64,000 nt of DNA from Candidatus Nitrospira kreftii (GTDB lineage Bacteria > Nitrospirota > Nitrospiria > Nitrospirales > Nitrospiraceae). How positions within the stretch are numbered: the first letter of the stretch is position 1; the number at the start of each line of letters is the position of its first letter. Position numbers and translations under genes: made by a program. Under the pieces are notes generated by a model that was not told the DNA's origin, did no database searches, and saw only the letters and a list, made by a program, of their open reading frames with translations. This document shows positions 23,533 through 38,221 of this stretch, piece after piece. The stretch is taken from assembly GCA_014058405.1 (NCBI GenBank), contig CP047423.1, forward strand, positions 4,014,501 through 4,078,500, written 5' to 3'.

Positions 23533-25113
23533 ATGAAAACCTTGGCATGCCTTGTCTTGATTCTATCCATGAATATCGGCGTCTTACTCGATGGGGTACA
23601 AGCCCAGGTATTAGACTTCGATTCCGTTCGGTTAGGAGACCGAGCGCTCGCGTTCGCCAGTGGGTCCATCCAGAAAGCTTCCCCGATCGATGGGACCGTG
23701 AACTTGGTGACCGGTGATAATCAGTCCACGGGGAATCGAATGCTTTTAGGTAAGGGAGATTCGCTCTATCTCAGGCTAAACACCTCGACTGATGTGGCGG
23801 TTGGAGATCTTTTTACGGTGTACCGACGCGTTCGTAAGGTGTTTCATCCGGTGACCCAGGAATATCTCGGCTTCGTTGTGAATCGATCAGCGATTGTGAA
23901 GGTAACCGCGGCCGATCATGCCCTAACCACAGCTGAAACTATTATCAGCTATGGACCTATCTCTCCTGGCGACCCAGTTGTGAGATTTACCGCTCCAACT
24001 TTAGATCTCGAGCCGAGCCCCGTGGAGAACGTTTCCAATCTCGACGGCATGATCATTGAGCTCCAGGCTGACCGATCTATGACACTTGTTGCACAATCTA
24101 ACGTTGTGTACCTGGATCGAGGCAAAGATGATGGATTGAAGGCCGGTGATCTTCTCGATATCCAGCGTTATAGCGCGGGACTTCCTTCGCGAACAATCGG
24201 CAAACTCAAGGTATTGACGACCGAACCACACACCGGTGTGGCCAAAGTCCTTAAAGCCAACACACGCGTTATGAAAGGAGATCGGTTCAGGCTCGTTGAG
24301 TCGGCTGCGCCCATGCTGCAGCCTCTCGCAACAAACGAGGAATCCTTTGTAGCGGGGGCCAGTGAACAAGCCAGCCTTGTGGTCCCAGGAGATCTGGTAT
24401 CTAGCAAGCTCAAAGTACAGGATGCCTCTGGACAAAGTCGCCTCAATCTTGGCGAGCTAGCCAAGTTTCTGCACTATGACTCGGGAGACGCAGCCATTAA
24501 GCCTGAAAGTTACACGGTACTAGATCAGTTAATTGAGTATCTCCACACAAGTGGCGATACGAGGTTAATCCGAATCGAAGGTCATACGGATAATGTGGAG
24601 ATCGGCCCCTCTCTCAAATCAAGGTATCCCAGCAATTTTGAATTGTCCAAGGTGCGCGCAAACGGTGTCCTTCGGTATCTTCTGGAGAAGGGTGAGGTTG
24701 AATCAACTCGTCTCAGCGCCGTGGGGCTTGGGGATAGCAAGCCAGTCGCCACGAATACGGTCGAGGAGGGACGGACGAAAAATCGGCGCGTGGAGATTCT
24801 TCTATACAGTCCAGACGCGGATACCTCAGCACTGCAACCTAGTGTTGAGACCCAAGCGCAATCGCCGGGAGGCAACCTTTCCACCCTGAACGCGCGCGAT
24901 ACCAACGACCAGCAGACCTCCTCAGGCGCTGCCCTCTCCGACAGGGATGATTCCCCTCGCAGCGGAACTCTGTCAGTAGGCGATTCTTCACAGACTTCTG
25001 GAAGGGGTGGTGCGAGCGCCGACAATGGCTCCAATCCCAATGGCGCGACGTCGACAGACACGAACCAACAAGATATGCCTCAGCAACCGGCTGCTGGAAC
25101 ACAAGCAGACTAA
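23533..25113 (+). CDS. OmpA-family C-terminal domain protein with N-terminal barrel-like repeats
   Basis: 526 residues. Start at 23533 after AAAGGAAC; it yields a signal peptide (MKTLACLVLILSMNIGVLLDG, cleavage near VQA-Q). The middle (about 60-260) holds two related beta-rich modules, each with a VGD/AGD-LF/LL-x-V/I-x-R motif and a GD-R/VVRF/RLV ending, resembling LysM/FlgT-like small barrels. The OmpA/MotB peptidoglycan-binding domain is at about 300-425 (IRIEGHTDNVEIGP, NFELSKVRANGVLRYLLEKG, TKNRRVEILL). The last 90 residues are low-complexity Ser/Gln/Asn/Gly. Probably periplasmic, tied to the cell wall. A perfect hairpin follows the stop. Confidence 0.8.
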   Translation: MKTLACLVLILSMNIGVLLDGVQAQVLDFDSVRLGDRALAFASGSIQKASPIDGTVNLVTGDNQSTGNRMLLGKGDSLYLRLNTSTDVAVGDLFTVYRRVRKVFHPVTQEYLGFVVNRSAIVKVTAADHALTTAETIISYGPISPGDPVVRFTAPTLDLEPSPVENVSNLDGMIIELQADRSMTLVAQSNVVYLDRGKDDGLKAGDLLDIQRYSAGLPSRTIGKLKVLTTEPHTGVAKVLKANTRVMKGDRFRLVESAAPMLQPLATNEESFVAGASEQASLVVPGDLVSSKLKVQDASGQSRLNLGELAKFLHYDSGDAAIKPESYTVLDQLIEYLHTSGDTRLIRIEGHTDNVEIGPSLKSRYPSNFELSKVRANGVLRYLLEKGEVESTRLSAVGLGDSKPVATNTVEEGRTKNRRVEILLYSPDADTSALQPSVETQAQSPGGNLSTLNARDTNDQQTSSGAALSDRDDSPRSGTLSVGDSSQTSGRGGASADNGSNPNGATSTDTNQQDMPQQPAAGTQAD

Positions 25114-25125
25114 CCTCGACAGTAG

Positions 25126-25153
25126 CCAGGGACTCAAAGCGCTGAGTCCCTGG
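25126..25153 (+). terminator. Perfect 11-bp stem-loop after the OmpA-type gene
   Basis: CCAGGGACTCA / TGAGTCCCTGG, perfect 11-bp arms with a 6-base loop, 12 bases after the TAA. There is no U-run behind it, so it may be a factor-assisted terminator or an mRNA 3'-end stabiliser instead of a classic intrinsic terminator. Confidence 0.5.
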
Positions 25154-25276
25154 ATTACTGGATCATTTCACCAAACATCATCCTCAAGGACGCCAACAGA
25201 CCCGGCATTCTTCGGGTATTCTTCGTTGTGGTCCACTGATAGAATAGAGAATGGTTTCGATAGGAATTCCACCGCC

Positions 25277-27523
25277 ATGAGGAGGACGGACACGCTCTAT
25301 GCGGATGTGATTGTTCCACGTCATATCTCGAAGTCTTTCACCTATCTCGTGCCCCCTACCTTGGCGCAACAGATTGGCGTCGGAAGCCGCGTCCTTGTCC
25401 CATTTGGACGTGTGATGCTGGAAGGAGCAGTCGTTTCGCTGGCCAATGAACTTCCGGCCGAGATACATGCCGCTTCTCTGAAGGCAATCTCTTCCCTGGT
25501 TCAAGACGACCAAGGCCCATTGTTGTCCCCCGAGCTGCTCGAACTATCCCGCAAGATTGCTAATTACTACGTTGCGCCCTGGGGCCAATCTCTTCGGCTA
25601 GTCTTTTCTCCACTCACCACGCGACAGACTAGCGCGACTCGATATATTGTCACTCCCCAGGGACGTGCAGCATTGGAGACCGGCAGCTGCCCCGACGACT
25701 TGCGACCGACTCTGCAGCGAATTGCCCGTCGAGCAAAGGGAATCTTGTCATCGACATTGGATCCAACTCGACGAGGTAGCGCACGGCGGATGATCGATAC
25801 GCTTGTCACAAATTCGTGGCTCGCTCGCGCATCGTCGGCCAGCGCCAACACCGATAACCGGAAACTGTCTAAGAAGCTCATGGCGCACGAGGGCGTTAAT
25901 GGAATACCAATGGATACCGCTCTGCTTACTGCGACCATTCCTGGAACGGATGTGTCGTGGAGAGCTCACATCACCCAATGTCTTCACAACCACCATAGGC
26001 AGAAACTCGTTCTGCATGCTCCATGGCCATATCGAATCAGAAGGCTTGCCGACGCCATTCAACAAGCGCACTCACTCAACCGCTCCACCATTGTGGTTAC
26101 CGGTGAGATCGCGAGAGCAACCTGGCTCCACCAGCTGCTCTCAGCTCTCACCGGGCTTCAGATTACTCTTGCACACTCGGCTTTGGGACCAGACCGATTG
26201 GAACAGCGTCATGGTTCAGTGCCAACGGTTGTCGTAGGAACCCGTTCCACCATTTTTGCACCCATCAAATCAATTGGACTGATCTGGGTCGAAGGGGAGG
26301 AAGATCCTGCTCTCAAAGAACCTCAGGAGCCGCGTTATCACGCCCGTGAGGTCGCAGGTCTGCGGGCCGAGAGCGAGCAGGCTCTCCTGGTACTTGCCTC
26401 CGCGCATCCATCCCTCGAGTCAAAATTCGACGCCACAGCCGAGCACCACTATGTTTCGCACGATGTGGCCCTTCAACCAAAGATCGAGGTGGTTGACCTC
26501 CGCAAGGAGACTGGAGGGACCCTGTTCAGCCATAAACTGATCTCAGCGATGCAAGAAGCACTTCGAAATCATAGAACAATACTGCTCTTTCTCAATAGAA
26601 AAGGGTATGCAACGACCTTGGTGTGTCGAGATTGTAGTTGGGTGCCTCGCTGTGCCCCTTGCGCCGTGCCATTCACCTACTATCGGGAGGCCTCCCGCCT
26701 GGCTTGCCGTTACTGCGGTAGCTCAGATGTGGTGCCTGATTCCTGTCCTTTATGCCATGCATCCCGTGTGAGTCCCATAGGAGACGGCACTGAGCGAGTC
26801 GAAACCGAAACCCGCCGCTTGTTTTCACAGGCCAAGATTGCGCGGATTGATGGTGACACGCTGCGTCAACCCGCGTCTGCCCGCCAACTGTGGGAGTCGG
26901 CCAGGTCAGGGACCTGTGATATCCTGATCGGGACGCAAGCGCTGTTTCGCAGAGAACCACTCCCCCAACATGGACTGGTAGGAATTCTTCAAGCAGATTC
27001 CGGGTTGCATGTCTCTGATTTTCGCTCAGCCGAGCGGACCTACCAGCTTCTGATAGATGCCGCAAGCCTAGCCTGTTCGGCTTCGAGAGGAGGTCGAGTC
27101 ATCGTCCAGACACGCTTCCCCACCCATCATGCCGTCCAAGCGCTGCTATTGGGAAACCCCGATCACTTCTACGAAGAAGAGCTTGCGGCGCGCCGGCTTT
27201 TGTACTACCCACCGCTATGCCACATCGCCGAGCTTTCGGTCAGTGGAAAGAACCTTGAGATTGTTCAGGACGCCGCGAAGCAATGGGCCACAGAACTTGG
27301 TCGGAGTACCGGTGGCCATGAGTCTCTGATCGTGCTGGGGCCGGTGCCGACCATAAACAGAGGGTCTCGAAACCATCATCACCGCTTGCTGGTAAAGGCA
27401 GCCGATTGCCGGATGCTGAGTCGTCGGGTCCATGATTCTGTGCAGGGTTTAGAGCAACAGTACCGAAGAGGACAGATCAAGTTTGCCATCGACATAGACC
27501 CGGTTGAAACCGGCCAAGCTTAA
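25277..27523 (+). CDS. priA: PriA homologue with inactivated helicase motifs
   Basis: 748 residues, full PriA length, starting MRRTDTLYADVIVPRHISKSF; the N-terminal 3'-DNA-binding domain is intact. The zinc module is also intact, with eight cysteines at 450, 453, 459, 462, 477, 480, 490 and 493. The superfamily 2 ATPase is not. Where Walker A (GxTGSGKTE) belongs, residues 246-254 read LHAPWPYRI. The DEEH box reads WVEGEEDPALKE (337-348), and the AGRAGR arginine-finger block is AASLACSASRGGR (595-607). Neighbouring segments such as GTRSTIFAPI, YHAREVAGLRAE and DILIGTQALF remain recognisable. PriA normally reloads DnaB at stalled forks; here any role must be structural (DNA and primosome binding), as proposed for actinobacterial PriA. 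The frame is continuous, so this is not a pseudogene. Confidence 0.88.
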   Translation: MRRTDTLYADVIVPRHISKSFTYLVPPTLAQQIGVGSRVLVPFGRVMLEGAVVSLANELPAEIHAASLKAISSLVQDDQGPLLSPELLELSRKIANYYVAPWGQSLRLVFSPLTTRQTSATRYIVTPQGRAALETGSCPDDLRPTLQRIARRAKGILSSTLDPTRRGSARRMIDTLVTNSWLARASSASANTDNRKLSKKLMAHEGVNGIPMDTALLTATIPGTDVSWRAHITQCLHNHHRQKLVLHAPWPYRIRRLADAIQQAHSLNRSTIVVTGEIARATWLHQLLSALTGLQITLAHSALGPDRLEQRHGSVPTVVVGTRSTIFAPIKSIGLIWVEGEEDPALKEPQEPRYHAREVAGLRAESEQALLVLASAHPSLESKFDATAEHHYVSHDVALQPKIEVVDLRKETGGTLFSHKLISAMQEALRNHRTILLFLNRKGYATTLVCRDCSWVPRCAPCAVPFTYYREASRLACRYCGSSDVVPDSCPLCHASRVSPIGDGTERVETETRRLFSQAKIARIDGDTLRQPASARQLWESARSGTCDILIGTQALFRREPLPQHGLVGILQADSGLHVSDFRSAERTYQLLIDAASLACSASRGGRVIVQTRFPTHHAVQALLLGNPDHFYEEELAARRLLYYPPLCHIAELSVSGKNLEIVQDAAKQWATELGRSTGGHESLIVLGPVPTINRGSRNHHHRLLVKAADCRMLSRRVHDSVQGLEQQYRRGQIKFAIDIDPVETGQA

Positions 27524-30777: not shown

Positions 30778-31440
30778 TCAGCCTTGCCGCTTGACGAAGA
30801 ACGCAGCAGCCTGCGTGCGGCGTGTGATGCGAAGCTTCTGAAAGACGTTCGCGAGATAGTTTTTCACGGTTTTGTCACTAAGCCCGAGGGCAACTGCAAT
30901 TTCCTTGTTGGTCTTTCCCTCGGCAACCAATGCTACGACCCGTTCCTCCTGAGATGAAAGTTGGTCGGTCCCTGGCGTCAATGGTAGATCGTGAAGTCCT
31001 CGCAACCACCTCAGAGCCCGTTCGGTCACGGTAGAGTCTAAGATGGACTGGCCCTTGGCGACAGAACGGATGGCTTCCAGCAATCCCGGGGAGTCGATTT
31101 CCTTCAGCACGTAGCCATGGGCGCCGGCGAGCACTGCGGCAAGCACCGAATCATCATCTGCATAGGACGTCAGAAAAATGACCCTGGTGGCGGGCAGTGC
31201 TCCCAGAATCTCTCGGCAGGCATCGACACCGGAACCATCCGGGAGACGCACATCCATCAAGATGACGTCTGGTTTCAGCTTCTGGCTCTGTTGAATGGCA
31301 TCGGTCATAGTGCCGGCCTCCCCCACCACCGTGATCCCCTGGTTTTGAGCCAAAACGGTCCGAAGCCCAACGCGAATCACCTCGTGATCATCGACAAGCA
31401 ACACACGAATGGTTTGAACTGGAGTTTTAGTTGTGAGCAT
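30778..31440 (-). CDS. NarL/FixJ-family response regulator
   Basis: 220 residues. Receiver (about 8-125): acidic pair in IRVLLVDDHEVIRVGL, Asp in PDVILMDVRLPDGSG, Thr/Ser in VIFLTSYADDD, Lys in GYVLKEIDS. C-terminal LuxR-type helix-turn-helix (about 155-218): LSSQEERVVALVAEGKTNKE and LSDKTVKNYLANVFQKL. I prefer the ATG at 31440 because AAAGGA of the kinase 3' end is well placed before it; the ATG at 31449 is the alternative. The gene overlaps the 3' end of the giant NarX-type kinase, so that kinase is its obvious partner. Confidence 0.92.
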   Translation of the reverse strand: MLTTKTPVQTIRVLLVDDHEVIRVGLRTVLAQNQGITVVGEAGTMTDAIQQSQKLKPDVILMDVRLPDGSGVDACREILGALPATRVIFLTSYADDDSVLAAVLAGAHGYVLKEIDSPGLLEAIRSVAKGQSILDSTVTERALRWLRGLHDLPLTPGTDQLSSQEERVVALVAEGKTNKEIAVALGLSDKTVKNYLANVFQKLRITRRTQAAAFFVKRQG

Positions 31441-34400
31441 AGTGACCATCCTTTGGAAGATCGAGTAAGATTTTCGTCCCCTTCCATGGTTTCGATTGAA
31501 GGGCGAACGATCCTCGGACCTTTTGAGCCCGTGCTGCCATGTTACCTAACCCGTGACCAACGCCTTGAGCCGACCGCGTATCAAACCCGATGCCATCGTC
31601 ACGAATGGTCAGACGAATCGCGCGGACGAGATCCCGAAGCGAGACCATGATCCGTGTGGCTCGGCTGTGCCGCAACGCATTACTAAGTCCTTCCCGAACG
31701 ACATTCATAATATGAAGTGCTTGTTCGGTTGATAGGCGACGTGATGCCGCATCGTCGATGCGTACGACACATTTCACCGGAGAAGAACCGGACATCGATT
31801 GGACCATGGTTCGTAGGGCCGTTGGAAAGTCCCCGCCCTGGATAACCTGAGACTCAAGACCTGCTATAAAATTACGAATCTCTCCCATCACTTGATTGAG
31901 CTGCCCAATCGCTTGATCAAGCGTGGTCATGAATGTTGACGCAATCTGCTGTGGCTGTTGCCGGATCATCGGCTTACAACCCTCTAACCCAAGCCCCACT
32001 GCATATAACGATTGGAGAATACCGTCATGGAGATCCTGACTGATGCGCTCCCTCTCTTGGAGCGCAACGCTTAAATCTCGTTCCCGCTGCAGCAATATCT
32101 CCTCCATTCTCTTGCGCTCAGTAATGTCGGTTGCCGCCCCAAGCACCATGTGAACCTGCCCCTCATCGTCATAAATCGGCCTTTTGACGGTCTGCAACCA
32201 ACGCGTGTTGCCGTTCACATCGGTCAATTTCTCCTCCGGGATAAACCGATCCCGTCCGGAATTCATCACCTCACGATCATTTTCCTGAAAGAACTCCACC
32301 TCATCCACATTGGGGTTGAAATCCGCGTCTGACTTCCCGATCAGGTCATCCACGGTCGTCCCATACCAATCGGCAACCGCTTTGTTGGCCACCGCAAACC
32401 GTCCTTCACGGTCCTTGGCGAAAATGAGGTCCGGGTCCGTGTCGATGACTTGTCGCAAAAACGTATGGGAACGGCGAAGCTCCGCCTCGGCTCGTTTGCG
32501 TTCTCCGATGTCCCTCAAAATCGCACAGCCATACTCTTTTCCATCATACTGCAGATAATTGAAGGTGACCTCCATATCCAGTATCTCACCGGTGCGCGAC
32601 CAATACTTTGCCTCAAATGCCAATGCTCCCTGCTCCTTCAAGTGACCCCAATGCTCCGGCCATCGTTCGACAGGAAAATTAGGATCAATGTCATGCACCG
32701 TCATCGCCATCAAATCCTGCCGTGAATACCCCAACATTCGGCAGGCGGTATCGTTGACGTTGAATATCCGAGCGGTCGGATCCAGCCACAAAATCGCTTC
32801 CACTGCCTGATCAACAGAGAACTGTGTCAGCCGCAGCGCTTTCTCCATGCGCTTGCGCTCAGTGATATCGTCCCCGACCGTGACAGAGCATTGCGTGCCG
32901 TTCAGCATGATCACTTCGGACGACAACAGACACTGGCGGACTTCGCCGCTCTTGCTCCGCAGCTTCACTTCCACGTTACGGGCCGATCCCACGCGTTTCA
33001 ACAGCTCAAGGTATCGGGTTCGTTCTTCCGCAGAATCCCAGAGCCCTATCTGTACTGTCGTGTGCTCCACCACTTCTTCTTTACAATACCCGAACAGCTG
33101 GCACGCAGCATCATTGACATCAACCACTCGTCCAGTGTCCAGCTCGCTGATGACGACCGGATGGGGGCTGGCTTGGAACGCCTTGGCAAAGCGTTCTTCG
33201 CTATTACGTAACGCTTCCTCCGCTTCTTTTCGCTCCGTAATGTCGCTAGCAACGGTAATCACGCATAGCGTTCCATTGAGCTCCGCGAGGTCAGCGGAGG
33301 TCAAGAAATAGCGCACCGCACCCGCTTTAGTCTTTAGAGCAAACTCCATATTGCGCACCGGCTGTCCAGCTTTCAGGCGCGCGATGACCCGCACTCTATC
33401 TTCGAGATTCGGCCAGATACCTAACATCAACGTGGTCTTGCCGATCACTTCCTCTCGACGAAAACCGAACGCCTCGAGACAGGCATCATTCACCTCGAGA
33501 CAACGGCCCGTTCCTACCTCGGTAATCCCGATTGGATGAGGACTTGCTCTAAAGGCTTTGGAGAATCGTTCCTCACTTTCCCGAAGAGCTTGCTCCGCCT
33601 GCTTGCGCTCAGTGATATCATCGCACACGATTAAGACCAATGGTTCTCCAGCTTGGTCCAGCACACGTGCAAACTCGCGTACCCAGAGCACCGTGCCATC
33701 CCCTCGTACCTTCCGAAATTCCCATTGCACGACTCCGTCCGGATGACGAAAGAATGCGTCTATCTCAGCACAGATGCGCGCTCGGTCTTCTTCGAAGAAG
33801 ATGGCCGCCACCGACGTCCCGACAAGATCTTCAACGCGATAACCCAAGTATTGCGCGCCATACTGGTTGACAGACCTGACGATTCCAGCTTTGTCCACAG
33901 TGAAGTACATTGAAGGAGTCTCATCATAAAGCGCTCGGTATCGTTCCTCGCTTTGACGCAGGTCATCCAGGGCGGATTGGCGGTCCAGCTCCCCGCCAAG
34001 CCAGCGGGCCATGAGTTGAATGAAATCTTTCTCGGTCTCGGTAAAATCTCGTTTCCTGGGTTCAACACCCACAAAACACAGGGTCCCATAGGTCCGCTCC
34101 AGACCGTTGATTGCAGTACCGATGTACGCTTCCAACTTCAGTGCAGCATAGGCTGGGTGTCGCTGCCACTCTGGAGAAGCACCGGCATGTTCGAAGCTCA
34201 GCGGTCCACCTCGGCGAAGAGTCTCAGCGCAGTACGTCTTGCTCAAGGGCACACGCATCCCTTCGTAGAAGACCGAACTGGGCGCGTTCACCTGCCTCAC
34301 CTCTAACTCTTCACCCCGGGTAATGGTCTCCATCCCGACCGGCAGGTCAAAGATCCGACAGCCGAGCTGAAGCAGGGCTTCAACCCGATCCTTGAACGAC

Positions 34401-37400
34401 TGCCCCTGAGCGGATGAGATATCGTGAAGCGCTCGAATTGCTTGTCGACTCTTCCAGAGAGCTTGTTCCGCCTGCCTGCGTTTCGTAATGTCTTTACTGA
34501 GTGTGATCATGCAAGATTTGCCGTGGTACTCGATCCGCTCTGCGGACACAAGGCAATCACGGCGTTCCCCGTCGGCCGTTTGAAGAACAGCTTCAAAATT
34601 TCGTATCGAGCCTTCCCGCTTCAATCTCTCAACGAATCGATGCTGATCATCCGGGGTCAGCCAATACTCAATCTCGGCTCCCTTTCGCCCGACTACTTTC
34701 TCTCGAGGGTATCCCAGGCCGGAGAGACAGGCGTCATTGACATCCAGCCATCGGCCGGAGTCGAGCTCCACCAACATCATGGGGTCAGGGCTAGACCGGA
34801 ATGCCTTCGAAAACAGTTCTTCGCTGGCCCGTAGCGCCTCCTCAGCCTCCTTACGCTCGGTGATGTCAACGGTCGCACCAATTAAGTGTGTCAAACGTCC
34901 ACTCTCATCACGCACGCTATGGCATCGAACATCAGTCCAAATCGTGGAAGCGTCTTTCTTCACCATACGAAGCTCGTAGTAACACTCATCAGCTGCTCCG
35001 TCTTGCATCAATTTCCAATGCTTCATGGCGATCGGCTGGTCGTCCGGATGGACGACGTTCAACCAGGCAAAGGGATCGGTTGAAAGTTCATCGGGGGCGT
35101 AGCCAAACAGAGCTTTCAGGTTGGCATCCCCGTGGTATTGCCCCTTTAGAACATCTAGTTCCCATACCCCGACTTTGCCGATAGCAGTGGCACGCGCGTA
35201 GCGCTCCTCACTGGCCTGCAATTCAGCCGTACGCTCGACGACTTTGCGCTCCAGTTCATCATGCGCAAGTCGGATGGCTTGTTCCGCTTGTTTGCGTTCC
35301 GTGATGTCTTGTAACGTTCCGTAGGCCCGAATCGCTCGACCTTCCAGGACATCGACCTTGCCGGCAGACCGCACCGCAATCCGACGTCCCTTTGCTGTGA
35401 TGAGCTCCAATTCGATATCCCAAGGCACCCCCTCTGTCATACCCTTTTCAAACGCCTCGGCAATTACAGGGCGGCTTTCTGATGCATAGAAATCCAACGC
35501 ACTTTCTACAGTCGGGCAGTAGAATTCCGGCGTCGTATCATGCAACTGGTACGTTTCATCGCTCCACCGTAACCGGTTCGTCACGAAGTCCAGCTCCCAT
35601 CCCCCAATCTTTCCAATCGCCTCAGTCTGGGCCAAGAGCGCGAACTGCTGCTTATGATGCGTAATATCCTCCGCAATGCCCGCAATGCGATTCTCCCACC
35701 CCGACATTCTGACCCTCCGGTCGGCAATCCAGCGGATATAGCCATCCCGTCCCACAATCCGGTACTCACAATAGAAGACCGCAGCCGTCCCTCCAGCAAG
35801 AAATCGATCGTGGTTTGCCTTCACTCGCATCCGATCCTCCGGATGTATCGAGTCGAGCCAGAGAGACCAATTGCGATATATCTCTTCCCGCTCAATACCC
35901 CAGATGAACGTGAAAGCGGCATTGACATAAATGACTTTCTTTCCATCCCGTGTAATCTCCGATATCCAGAATGCCGAACCGACCGACTCGGCAAACTGCT
36001 GGAAACGCGCCTGGCTCTCCCGCAACGCCTCCTGTGCGCGATTACGCTCGGTGATATCAGTCGCAATGGCGCCGATGGCTGAGAGATGCCCAGCGGCATC
36101 AGTCACAGGGAATTTCACCGTAAGACTAATATGAGCTCCATCTTCCTGTTGCATGACCTCCTCGAACTCCTGTGCTCCTCCACTAGCTAATACCTCTCGA
36201 TCATGCGCTTGAAACTGATCGGCTTGATCGGGCGAAAACAGTTCCCGATCGGTCTTTCCTATGGCCATGCCGGGAGCCAGCCGGAAAACCTCGTCGAATC
36301 GTCGGTTGGTATACAGGTAGCGACCGTCGTGATCCTTCAGGCAAGTGACGCTTGGCGCGTTATCGAAAAATTGCCGAAAGCGCTCATCGCTCCGGCGTAA
36401 CGCCTCCGTCCGGTCGCACACCTGTCGTTCTAGCGTAGCATTGAGCGCAGCAACCGCTTCTTGCGCCGCCTTGCGCTCAGTAATATCGGAAAAGAGACCC
36501 AGGATGGCGGGTTTGCCGTTCCACGTGATCCGTGCTGCCTCTACCTGCACCGGAACCGGTGTTCCGTCTAACTTTAGATAGATTCGTTCTGCGCTATGAA
36601 CGGACACTCCCCCCCTCAACAGCCGTGTCACATTCTGGAGGACTTCCTGATGATAGTCAGGATGGATGAATTCGAATGCTGGCCGGTCAAGAAATTCCTG
36701 CTCATCCGACGCCCCCATGAGCACTGCGCCCGTATGATTGACATAGACGATCCGTCCTTCGCAGAAGACGAATACACCCGAAGGGGAAAGTTCGACCAAG
36801 GTGCGGTATCGTTCTTCGCTCTCCCGGACAGCCTCCTCCATTCGTTTACGCTCGGTAATATCAGTATGCGAGCCGAGGAGGCGAACCTGTCTGCCATCTG
36901 CCTCGGTAACAAACGCAGCTCTCGCCTCAATCCATCGATACGTCCCGTCCTTCTGCCGCAGGCGAAATTCCTGCCGATAGTTTCCCTTACGGCTGGTGAT
37001 ATAATTTCGGGCGTAGGCCAGCGCCCCTTTGCGATCATCCGGATGCAGGAGCATCGCCCATGCCTCAAAGGAATCTTCGATCTCTGTCTTCTCATACCCA
37101 AGCTGGTGCTTCCATTCCTCGGAAAAGACCACCGCATTCGTTTCCGTATTCCAATCCCACAAGCCAGTACTTGACGCCTGCAGAGCTTGCCACAGCTTCT
37201 CCTGGGAGGTCCGCAGCGCCTCCTCAACATACTTCCGTGTGGTAATGTCCAGCATGCTACCGGACATGGAAACCGGGCGACCGCTCCCATCACGACAAAC
37301 CTCGCCCCGACAATTCAGAGCTCGAATCTCTCCGTTTGGGCGCACAACGCGACATTCCACATCGAAGATAGCCCGTCCTGCTAGAGCATTGTTGATCGCA

Positions 37401-38221
37401 TCTCGCACATGTCCACGATCATCCGGATAGACTGCGCGTAGAAACGTTTCGTGGGTCACTGTAACGGCTCCCGGTTCGTATCCAAACAGTCTGTATTGTT
37501 CATCTGACCACCATGTGTTCCCACTCTCTATGTCCCAGTCCCAGCTTCCGAGGTGCGCCAACGCTTGAGACTCAATCAGATGACGTTGCTGATGATTCAG
37601 TCTGGCTTCCCCCTGGCGTCGCTGGAGTTCAGCTCCGGCTCGTGATGCAAAGACATCCATAAGCGATTTCAGTCGGTGGGTATGACGCAAGGGCTTGGTA
37701 TCCATGAACACGAGCAGCCCAATGATGGATCCGCTTTTGGCACTGAGCGGTACCCCGCAATAGCTCTCAACCCGCAACTGATCCAATCGTTCACATGTCG
37801 GGAACATAGCCCGTACGTCTCGTTCGAAGCACGCAAAAGACTGTCTCAGCATAGATTCACAAGGTGTGCCATCCAGAGGATATTCAAAATTCTCGACGAC
37901 GGAGCCTCCTGAAGCGACGGCAATGGTACGAATCGTCTTGGCGGCCTCTCGTTGGACCTCCCCGACGATTGCATACTGCACGCCAAATACCGAACACAGA
38001 TGAAGTACTAACGTTTGAAAAAAGTCCTCGCCTGTCTCGGCTGCGGTGCCGGCAACGATAGCACGAAGCATTTCTGATTGCTCCCGCAGGTCTTGTACCT
38101 CGTCGTCCAGCTGTCGATTGTGATGGCGCAAGGCTTGGTCCCGTTCCGTCAATTCACGCGCTAAGTCGGCAACCTGCTTTCGCAATAGCTCTAATTCAGG
38201 AGGATGACTTGTCGCACTCAT
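31427..38221 (-). CDS. Giant NarX-type sensor kinase: 13 PAS and 2 GAF domains
   Basis: 2264 residues, soluble, no membrane segment. Order (rough): N-terminal coiled coil, GAF (50-195), eight PAS/PAC units (210-1260), a second GAF (1265-1420), five more PAS/PAC units (1425-2035), then HisKA_3 with RERISQDLHDGILQSLYAVG (phosphoacceptor His) and HATPase_c with NVVREGLSNALRHSRATRI, RDDGIGFDTRSAQ and GHGLGNMAARAQ. The PAC units end in the usual DITERK linkers. PAS 8, 10 and 11 are similar to each other (SPxPxxxxExxxGRxxxVNDA), pointing to internal duplication. AAGGAG lies 8 bp before the ATG. The downstream NarL-type regulator overlaps its end. Signals are unknown; some PAS units could bind heme or flavin, but this cannot be seen. 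Confidence 0.9.
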   Translation of the reverse strand: MSATSHPPELELLRKQVADLARELTERDQALRHHNRQLDDEVQDLREQSEMLRAIVAGTAAETGEDFFQTLVLHLCSVFGVQYAIVGEVQREAAKTIRTIAVASGGSVVENFEYPLDGTPCESMLRQSFACFERDVRAMFPTCERLDQLRVESYCGVPLSAKSGSIIGLLVFMDTKPLRHTHRLKSLMDVFASRAGAELQRRQGEARLNHQQRHLIESQALAHLGSWDWDIESGNTWWSDEQYRLFGYEPGAVTVTHETFLRAVYPDDRGHVRDAINNALAGRAIFDVECRVVRPNGEIRALNCRGEVCRDGSGRPVSMSGSMLDITTRKYVEEALRTSQEKLWQALQASSTGLWDWNTETNAVVFSEEWKHQLGYEKTEIEDSFEAWAMLLHPDDRKGALAYARNYITSRKGNYRQEFRLRQKDGTYRWIEARAAFVTEADGRQVRLLGSHTDITERKRMEEAVRESEERYRTLVELSPSGVFVFCEGRIVYVNHTGAVLMGASDEQEFLDRPAFEFIHPDYHQEVLQNVTRLLRGGVSVHSAERIYLKLDGTPVPVQVEAARITWNGKPAILGLFSDITERKAAQEAVAALNATLERQVCDRTEALRRSDERFRQFFDNAPSVTCLKDHDGRYLYTNRRFDEVFRLAPGMAIGKTDRELFSPDQADQFQAHDREVLASGGAQEFEEVMQQEDGAHISLTVKFPVTDAAGHLSAIGAIATDITERNRAQEALRESQARFQQFAESVGSAFWISEITRDGKKVIYVNAAFTFIWGIEREEIYRNWSLWLDSIHPEDRMRVKANHDRFLAGGTAAVFYCEYRIVGRDGYIRWIADRRVRMSGWENRIAGIAEDITHHKQQFALLAQTEAIGKIGGWELDFVTNRLRWSDETYQLHDTTPEFYCPTVESALDFYASESRPVIAEAFEKGMTEGVPWDIELELITAKGRRIAVRSAGKVDVLEGRAIRAYGTLQDITERKQAEQAIRLAHDELERKVVERTAELQASEERYARATAIGKVGVWELDVLKGQYHGDANLKALFGYAPDELSTDPFAWLNVVHPDDQPIAMKHWKLMQDGAADECYYELRMVKKDASTIWTDVRCHSVRDESGRLTHLIGATVDITERKEAEEALRASEELFSKAFRSSPDPMMLVELDSGRWLDVNDACLSGLGYPREKVVGRKGAEIEYWLTPDDQHRFVERLKREGSIRNFEAVLQTADGERRDCLVSAERIEYHGKSCMITLSKDITKRRQAEQALWKSRQAIRALHDISSAQGQSFKDRVEALLQLGCRIFDLPVGMETITRGEELEVRQVNAPSSVFYEGMRVPLSKTYCAETLRRGGPLSFEHAGASPEWQRHPAYAALKLEAYIGTAINGLERTYGTLCFVGVEPRKRDFTETEKDFIQLMARWLGGELDRQSALDDLRQSEERYRALYDETPSMYFTVDKAGIVRSVNQYGAQYLGYRVEDLVGTSVAAIFFEEDRARICAEIDAFFRHPDGVVQWEFRKVRGDGTVLWVREFARVLDQAGEPLVLIVCDDITERKQAEQALRESEERFSKAFRASPHPIGITEVGTGRCLEVNDACLEAFGFRREEVIGKTTLMLGIWPNLEDRVRVIARLKAGQPVRNMEFALKTKAGAVRYFLTSADLAELNGTLCVITVASDITERKEAEEALRNSEERFAKAFQASPHPVVISELDTGRVVDVNDAACQLFGYCKEEVVEHTTVQIGLWDSAEERTRYLELLKRVGSARNVEVKLRSKSGEVRQCLLSSEVIMLNGTQCSVTVGDDITERKRMEKALRLTQFSVDQAVEAILWLDPTARIFNVNDTACRMLGYSRQDLMAMTVHDIDPNFPVERWPEHWGHLKEQGALAFEAKYWSRTGEILDMEVTFNYLQYDGKEYGCAILRDIGERKRAEAELRRSHTFLRQVIDTDPDLIFAKDREGRFAVANKAVADWYGTTVDDLIGKSDADFNPNVDEVEFFQENDREVMNSGRDRFIPEEKLTDVNGNTRWLQTVKRPIYDDEGQVHMVLGAATDITERKRMEEILLQRERDLSVALQERERISQDLHDGILQSLYAVGLGLEGCKPMIRQQPQQIASTFMTTLDQAIGQLNQVMGEIRNFIAGLESQVIQGGDFPTALRTMVQSMSGSSPVKCVVRIDDAASRRLSTEQALHIMNVVREGLSNALRHSRATRIMVSLRDLVRAIRLTIRDDGIGFDTRSAQGVGHGLGNMAARAQKVRGSFALQSKPWKGTKILLDLPKDGHYAHN

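Follow-up and report, generated by a model that had tools for sequence, protein, structure and literature searches.

A PriA of Candidatus Nitrospira kreftii without helicase motor motifs, with its DNA-binding and zinc modules retained, and motor loss across Nitrospirales

The window analysed here is a stretch of 64,000 nucleotides that covers bases 4,014,501-4,078,500 of the Candidatus Nitrospira kreftii genome, a single contig of 4,125,728 bases that is 99.97% complete. An open reading frame at window 25277-27523 on the plus strand was identified as priA, and the first-pass annotation had rightly described it as one continuous frame of 748 codons. The ATG at 25277 agrees with the start in close relatives; the frame stays open in the 5' direction to a GTG at 25007 (window 25007-27523, plus strand). 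Elsewhere in the window, positions 31427-38221 on the minus strand encode a histidine kinase of 2264 aa with numerous PAS and GAF domains. The features of priA are as follows, with residue numbers referring to the 748-aa protein.

25277-27523, plus strand: priA, helicase-dead PriA of 748 aa, sole copy in the genome (TIGR00595, PF17764, PF18319 and PF18074 over cut-off)
25304-25603, plus strand: 3'-DNA-binding domain (PriA_3primeBD), residues 10-109, intact (PF17764, E 1.6e-22)
26012-26038, plus strand: former Walker A (P-loop), LHAPWPYRI at residues 246-254 where LAGVTGSGKT is expected (alignment)
26237-26248, plus strand: GTRS motif, residues 321-324, kept (alignment)
26288-26305, plus strand: former motif II (DEEH), VEGEED at residues 338-343 (alignment)
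26336-26356, plus strand: YHAREVA, residues 354-360, part of the aromatic-rich-loop region, mostly kept (alignment)
26624-26755, plus strand: zinc module with eight cysteines, residues 450, 453, 459, 462, 477, 480, 490 and 493 (PF18319, 27.2 bits)
27017-27094, plus strand: DFRSAER, residues 581-587, kept, followed by former motif VI, SLACSASRGG at residues 597-606 (alignment)
27212-27502, plus strand: PriA C-terminal domain, residues 646-742 (PF18074, E 1.2e-10)

In Pfam searches, three domains of this protein scored over cut-off (3'-DNA-binding, zinc ribbon and PriA C-terminal), and no helicase domain was detected. The domain set that marks a PriA (3'BD, zinc ribbons, PriA_C) is complete, and the protein also exceeds the cut-off of the NCBIfam model TIGR00595 (365 bits; cut-off 230). 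As this model passes the protein under the name 'replication restart helicase PriA', the annotation of Nitrospira genomes can mislead. The earlier observation that the eight zinc cysteines and the N-terminal DNA-binding domain are intact was confirmed by residue positions and by the PF17764 match, respectively, and all eight cysteines were invariant when the window protein was aligned with named Nitrospira-group loci (34 rows).

The motor motifs presented a different picture. When the protein was aligned with E. coli PriA, GVTGSGKT paired with APW-PYRI, which is one residue shorter, DEEHD paired with EGEED, and GRAGRAG paired with LACSASR. These pairings bore out the first-pass reading of all three sites, namely LHAPWPYRI in place of Walker A, EGEED in place of the DEEH box (within residues 338-343) and SLACSASRGG in place of AGRAGR. 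The GxTGSGKT signature of an active SF2 motor is therefore lacking (APW-PYRI), as are the DEEH of motif II and the GRAGR of motif VI (EGEE and LACSA). A search of the 4,125,728-base single-contig genome for a second PriA, and of the protein for a Walker A or DEEH at other sites, found neither, so that the two observations that could have overturned this reading were not made. Its wording that all helicase motifs had been erased holds for motifs I, II and VI but is too broad, since GTRS, NRKG (440-443), IGTQ (551-554), DFRSAER and part of motif III (SAHPS) stay in place. We also determined how far the positions conserved in motor-live Nitrospirota PriA are conserved in Nitrospiraceae. This value was ∼11% for motif I and ∼14% for motif VI; it was 84% for the zinc module, 100% for the eight cysteines and 85% for the GTRS region, with four of four positions kept in the GxGTE region. 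DFR(S/A)AER was kept in ∼100% of Nitrospiraceae PriA.

The motifs were lost in every intact Nitrospirales PriA that was read (21 from Nitrospiraceae and two from a second family), and because the same loss recurs in every one of them across family and order, it does not reflect chance or error. Three residues of the former P-loop (A248, W250, R253) and three of the former motif II (G340, E341, D343) are invariant within the 34 Nitrospira-group proteins; the letters of the former P-loop differ in other branches of the genus. Selection on the gene was estimated as pN/pS (Nei-Gojobori, mean over seven close pairs). Over its full length the gene gave 0.30, with lower values in lobe 1 (0.27), the second half of lobe 2 (0.17) and the zinc module (0.21) and a higher one in residues 113-225 (0.58). 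The dead helicase core of Nitrospira priA is thus under strong purifying selection, and the 34 relatives together with the pN/pS values rule out a pseudogene, a decaying gene or a sequencing error. In one other genome (G108), PriA lies in two pieces on one contig with unknown residues at the join, probably an assembly fault. An AlphaFold model of the window protein, computed with 34 sequences, had a mean pLDDT of 74.5 and a pTM of 0.70. At the P-loop site the model places a strand at 243-247 and a helix starting at 250, almost directly after it. In a structure search with this model, PriA crystal structures ranked top with Z 21-23 (6dcr_A, Z 22.8 over 517 residues; 8fak_H, Z 22.4), followed by Mfd with Z of about 17.6. 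As modelled, the PriA fold is retained despite the loss of the motor.

We then considered the distribution of motor-dead PriA in Nitrospirota, as the first-pass annotation had asked whether the loss is clade-wide and whether it is independent or shared. Within one class, dead PriA occurs in Nitrospirales (f1, f2) and in three more families (f25, f23 and f27); beyond that class it occurs in nine families (f6, f12, f14 and f16-f21). The remaining sampled families have motor-live PriA, including f22, f24, f26 and f28-f32 of the class to which Nitrospirales belongs. The nine-family group resembles Nitrospirales in having lost motifs I, II and VI, but it has replacement sequences of its own, and its P-loop is not shortened; it further differs in that SSB ends in DLEPF in the four families read (f12, f14, f17 and f18) and that the pocket residues described below are mostly kept. 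Two genomes stood apart in copy number. G133 (f25) carries one motor-dead PriA on each of two contigs, and the pair represents either a gene duplicate or a mixed bin. In G105, which belongs to the same genus as the window's genome (2.0 Mb, 99% complete, 80 contigs), DciA and SSB were found and the PriA search gave no match; either PriA has possibly been lost outright from this small-genome Nitrospira, or the assembly has a gap.

On the rpoB tree, this distribution requires three changes, and a single dead clade was rejected (AU test, p = 1.2e-5). The Nitrospirales loss spans the whole order, and the species tree supports its independence from one or more of the other losses in Nitrospirota. 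An alternative is that one ancient loss occurred, or that a dead allele was transferred between lineages, and the PriA tree itself lends this some weight: with all families included, the dead PriA form one group with a branch support of 84, which is weak support for a single loss, and when three dead families were removed two dead groups appeared while a single clade was still not rejected (p 0.15). However, the PriA data also do not reject a tree in which the class is monophyletic (p 0.39), and the dead PriA evolve fast and sit on long branches that may attract one another. Given the rejection by rpoB, we regard a single or transferred loss as unlikely, and conclude that there were at least two losses in the phylum, probably three or more.

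We also inspected both sides of the contact between PriA and SSB. The tail pocket of K. pneumoniae PriA consists of Trp82, Tyr86, Lys370, Arg697 and Gln701 (PMC5531588), with the tail seen in 4nl8. Peptide binding to PriA, RecO, PriC and chi has been attributed to the SSB tip alone (PMC7145534). The single SSB of the window's genome (G000:C1:894311-894619, outside the window) ends EPPIHDDPGYEMGEDG, without Pro-Phe; its final letters are GYEMGEDG in place of the Pro-Phe tail. This tail was absent from SSB in 13/13 Nitrospirales genomes read, with ends such as GYEMGEEG, SYEDEQL, SYEYDEQH and YESEEYA, and in one branch of the order the end is GYEEDIPQ, which differs by one letter from the common IPF. 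Among Nitrospirota outside Nitrospirales, all 16 tails obtained had a Pro-Phe end (17 genomes, G023 left out), and this set includes the two f25 genomes, whose PriA is dead, as well as four from the second dead group (..DLEPF). In the window PriA, residues 93 and 97 correspond to the Trp and Tyr of the pocket and are Lys and Tyr. By alignment, the pocket Trp, Tyr and Lys are present in 21, 24 and 19 of 25 motor-live PriA, and each in six of six dead PriA of f25; in Nitrospiraceae PriA the counts are 5/21, 7/21 and 0/21. The second Nitrospirales family keeps the Trp and Tyr and not the Lys, f23 and f27 are variable, and the Arg and Gln positions are unconserved across the whole phylum.

Judged by these sequences, motor loss and SSB-tail loss coincide in Nitrospirales, whereas elsewhere in the phylum the motor was lost without the tail. 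The apparent link between SSB and pocket is a correlation across one order. Moreover, pocket loss alone is no proof of lost SSB binding, because the pocket is likewise missing from S. aureus PriA, which SaSsbA nevertheless binds (PMC5531588). We propose only tentatively, and with somewhat more doubt than confidence, that Nitrospirales dropped SSB-tail recruitment for restart altogether, with an SSB without Pro-Phe and a PriA without motor and (in Nitrospiraceae) pocket, and that PriA would serve there as a passive fork-recognition platform with DnaB and DciA alone.

DciA is described as the helicase-associated protein in bacteria without DnaC/DnaI (PMC5720831). Of the 118 genomes searched, 110 gave a DciA match, including that of the window, where it was the only loader-type match. 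No DnaC/DnaI loader was found in the window's genome, with one additional weak match below cut-off. A strong IstB-like match was rejected as a loader as it adjoins an IstA-like transposase and represents an IS21 helper, and the remaining matches of the loader search were PhoH, Lon and, judging by its position and size, one DnaA-like protein close to base 1. The best PriC match in this genome was below cut-off and within a 1237-codon frame. Genes for RecG (over cut-off), RecQ-family, Mfd and UvrD-type proteins are present.

The window protein is clearly descended from PriA helicase and has lost the catalytic residues, which is one of the marks of a PriA pseudohelicase such as that of D. radiodurans. 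We consider it likely that it acts as such, binding forks and serving DnaB as a platform; the only loader found is DciA. The analogous PriA of D. radiodurans (PMC4504706) suggests that binding and recruitment could proceed without the motor. In the proposed mechanism, branched DNA would be recognised by the 3'-binding domain, the duplex-binding core and the zinc module, and PriA would stay on the fork without ATP. Its surface would then be the site to which DnaB is brought with DciA, and clearing of the lagging strand would fall to other helicases or be unnecessary. In Nitrospirales, PriA would probably be recruited by recognising the fork directly and not through the usual SSB tail; alternatively, it may involve the replacement acidic end of SSB with its conserved tyrosine (e.g. 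HDDPGYE).

A variant of this idea, in which a separate helicase (RecG, RecQ or a Rep/UvrD-type enzyme) clears the lagging strand ahead of DnaB loading by the dead PriA, has the existence of RecG, RecQ-family and UvrD-type genes in its favour. Yet no helicase was found to mark the genomes with dead PriA in a survey that covered the UvrD-type helicase, a candidate marker present in 118/118 genomes, with live and dead PriA alike. We hold this variant to be conceivable but somewhat unlikely. It is considerably harder to maintain that PriA has given up its role in restart and either does a different job as a structural DNA-binding protein or is being lost. The same-genus genome without a PriA match (G105) would fit such a view, but purifying selection acts across all PriA domains, the full domain set and fold are kept, and PriA was found in nearly all relatives, which makes this improbable. 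That ATP is still bound or hydrolysed at a non-canonical site might be suggested by an Arg that takes the place of the Walker lysine in 19/21 Nitrospiraceae rows and by the acidic residues still present at motif II. Against this, the P-loop is shortened and its glycines are gone, the motif VI arginines are absent, and, according to work cited in PMC4504706, K230R alone kills the ATPase of E. coli PriA; residual ATP use thus seems very improbable. The pseudohelicase platform remains our preferred reading.

The PriA motor is usually assumed to be necessary outside the laboratory. Repeated motor loss, while selection maintains the remainder of the protein, suggests that the platform role is what selection keeps, and the paired live and dead PriA relatives within one phylum allow tests of this role. 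If confirmed, the absence of the SSB tail in Nitrospirales breaks a rule held to be general for bacteria, and a tail-less SSB lets one ask which SSB contacts are dispensable.

Actinobacterial PriA proteins lack working helicase motifs despite their PriA-like domains, and are presumably the set that the PRK14873 models describe. The window protein is not a best match to these models, as it scored 435.6 bits with PRK05580.1-3 versus 193.8 bits at best with PRK14873.1-3; the higher score of the canonical PRK05580 favours a loss independent of the actinobacterial one. E. coli and K. pneumoniae PriA (6dgd, 8fak, 4nl4, 4nl8) share the domain order, the fold, the eight zinc cysteines and DFRSAER with the window PriA, but have a full motor and an SSB-tail pocket that is largely missing here. 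A search of open-licence papers found nothing on Nitrospira PriA or a tail-less SSB. The kind of protein is already known, as PriA pseudohelicases have been published for Deinococcus-Thermus; as far as the searched papers show, the phylum, the repeated loss and the linked change in SSB and pocket are new. The PriA of D. radiodurans has no ATPase and no unwinding activity, yet binds forks and DnaB (PMC4504706). It resembles the Nitrospira protein in its degraded Walker A and B motifs, the Arg at the Walker lysine position, the retained DNA-binding parts and the proposed motorless action. It belongs to another phylum and was tested by experiment, whereas Nitrospira PriA is known from sequence and model. 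Its P-loop is only substituted, whereas that of the window PriA is shortened and rewritten and motif VI is gone as well, and the Nitrospirales system further differs from that of D. radiodurans in its SSB without a Pro-Phe tail.
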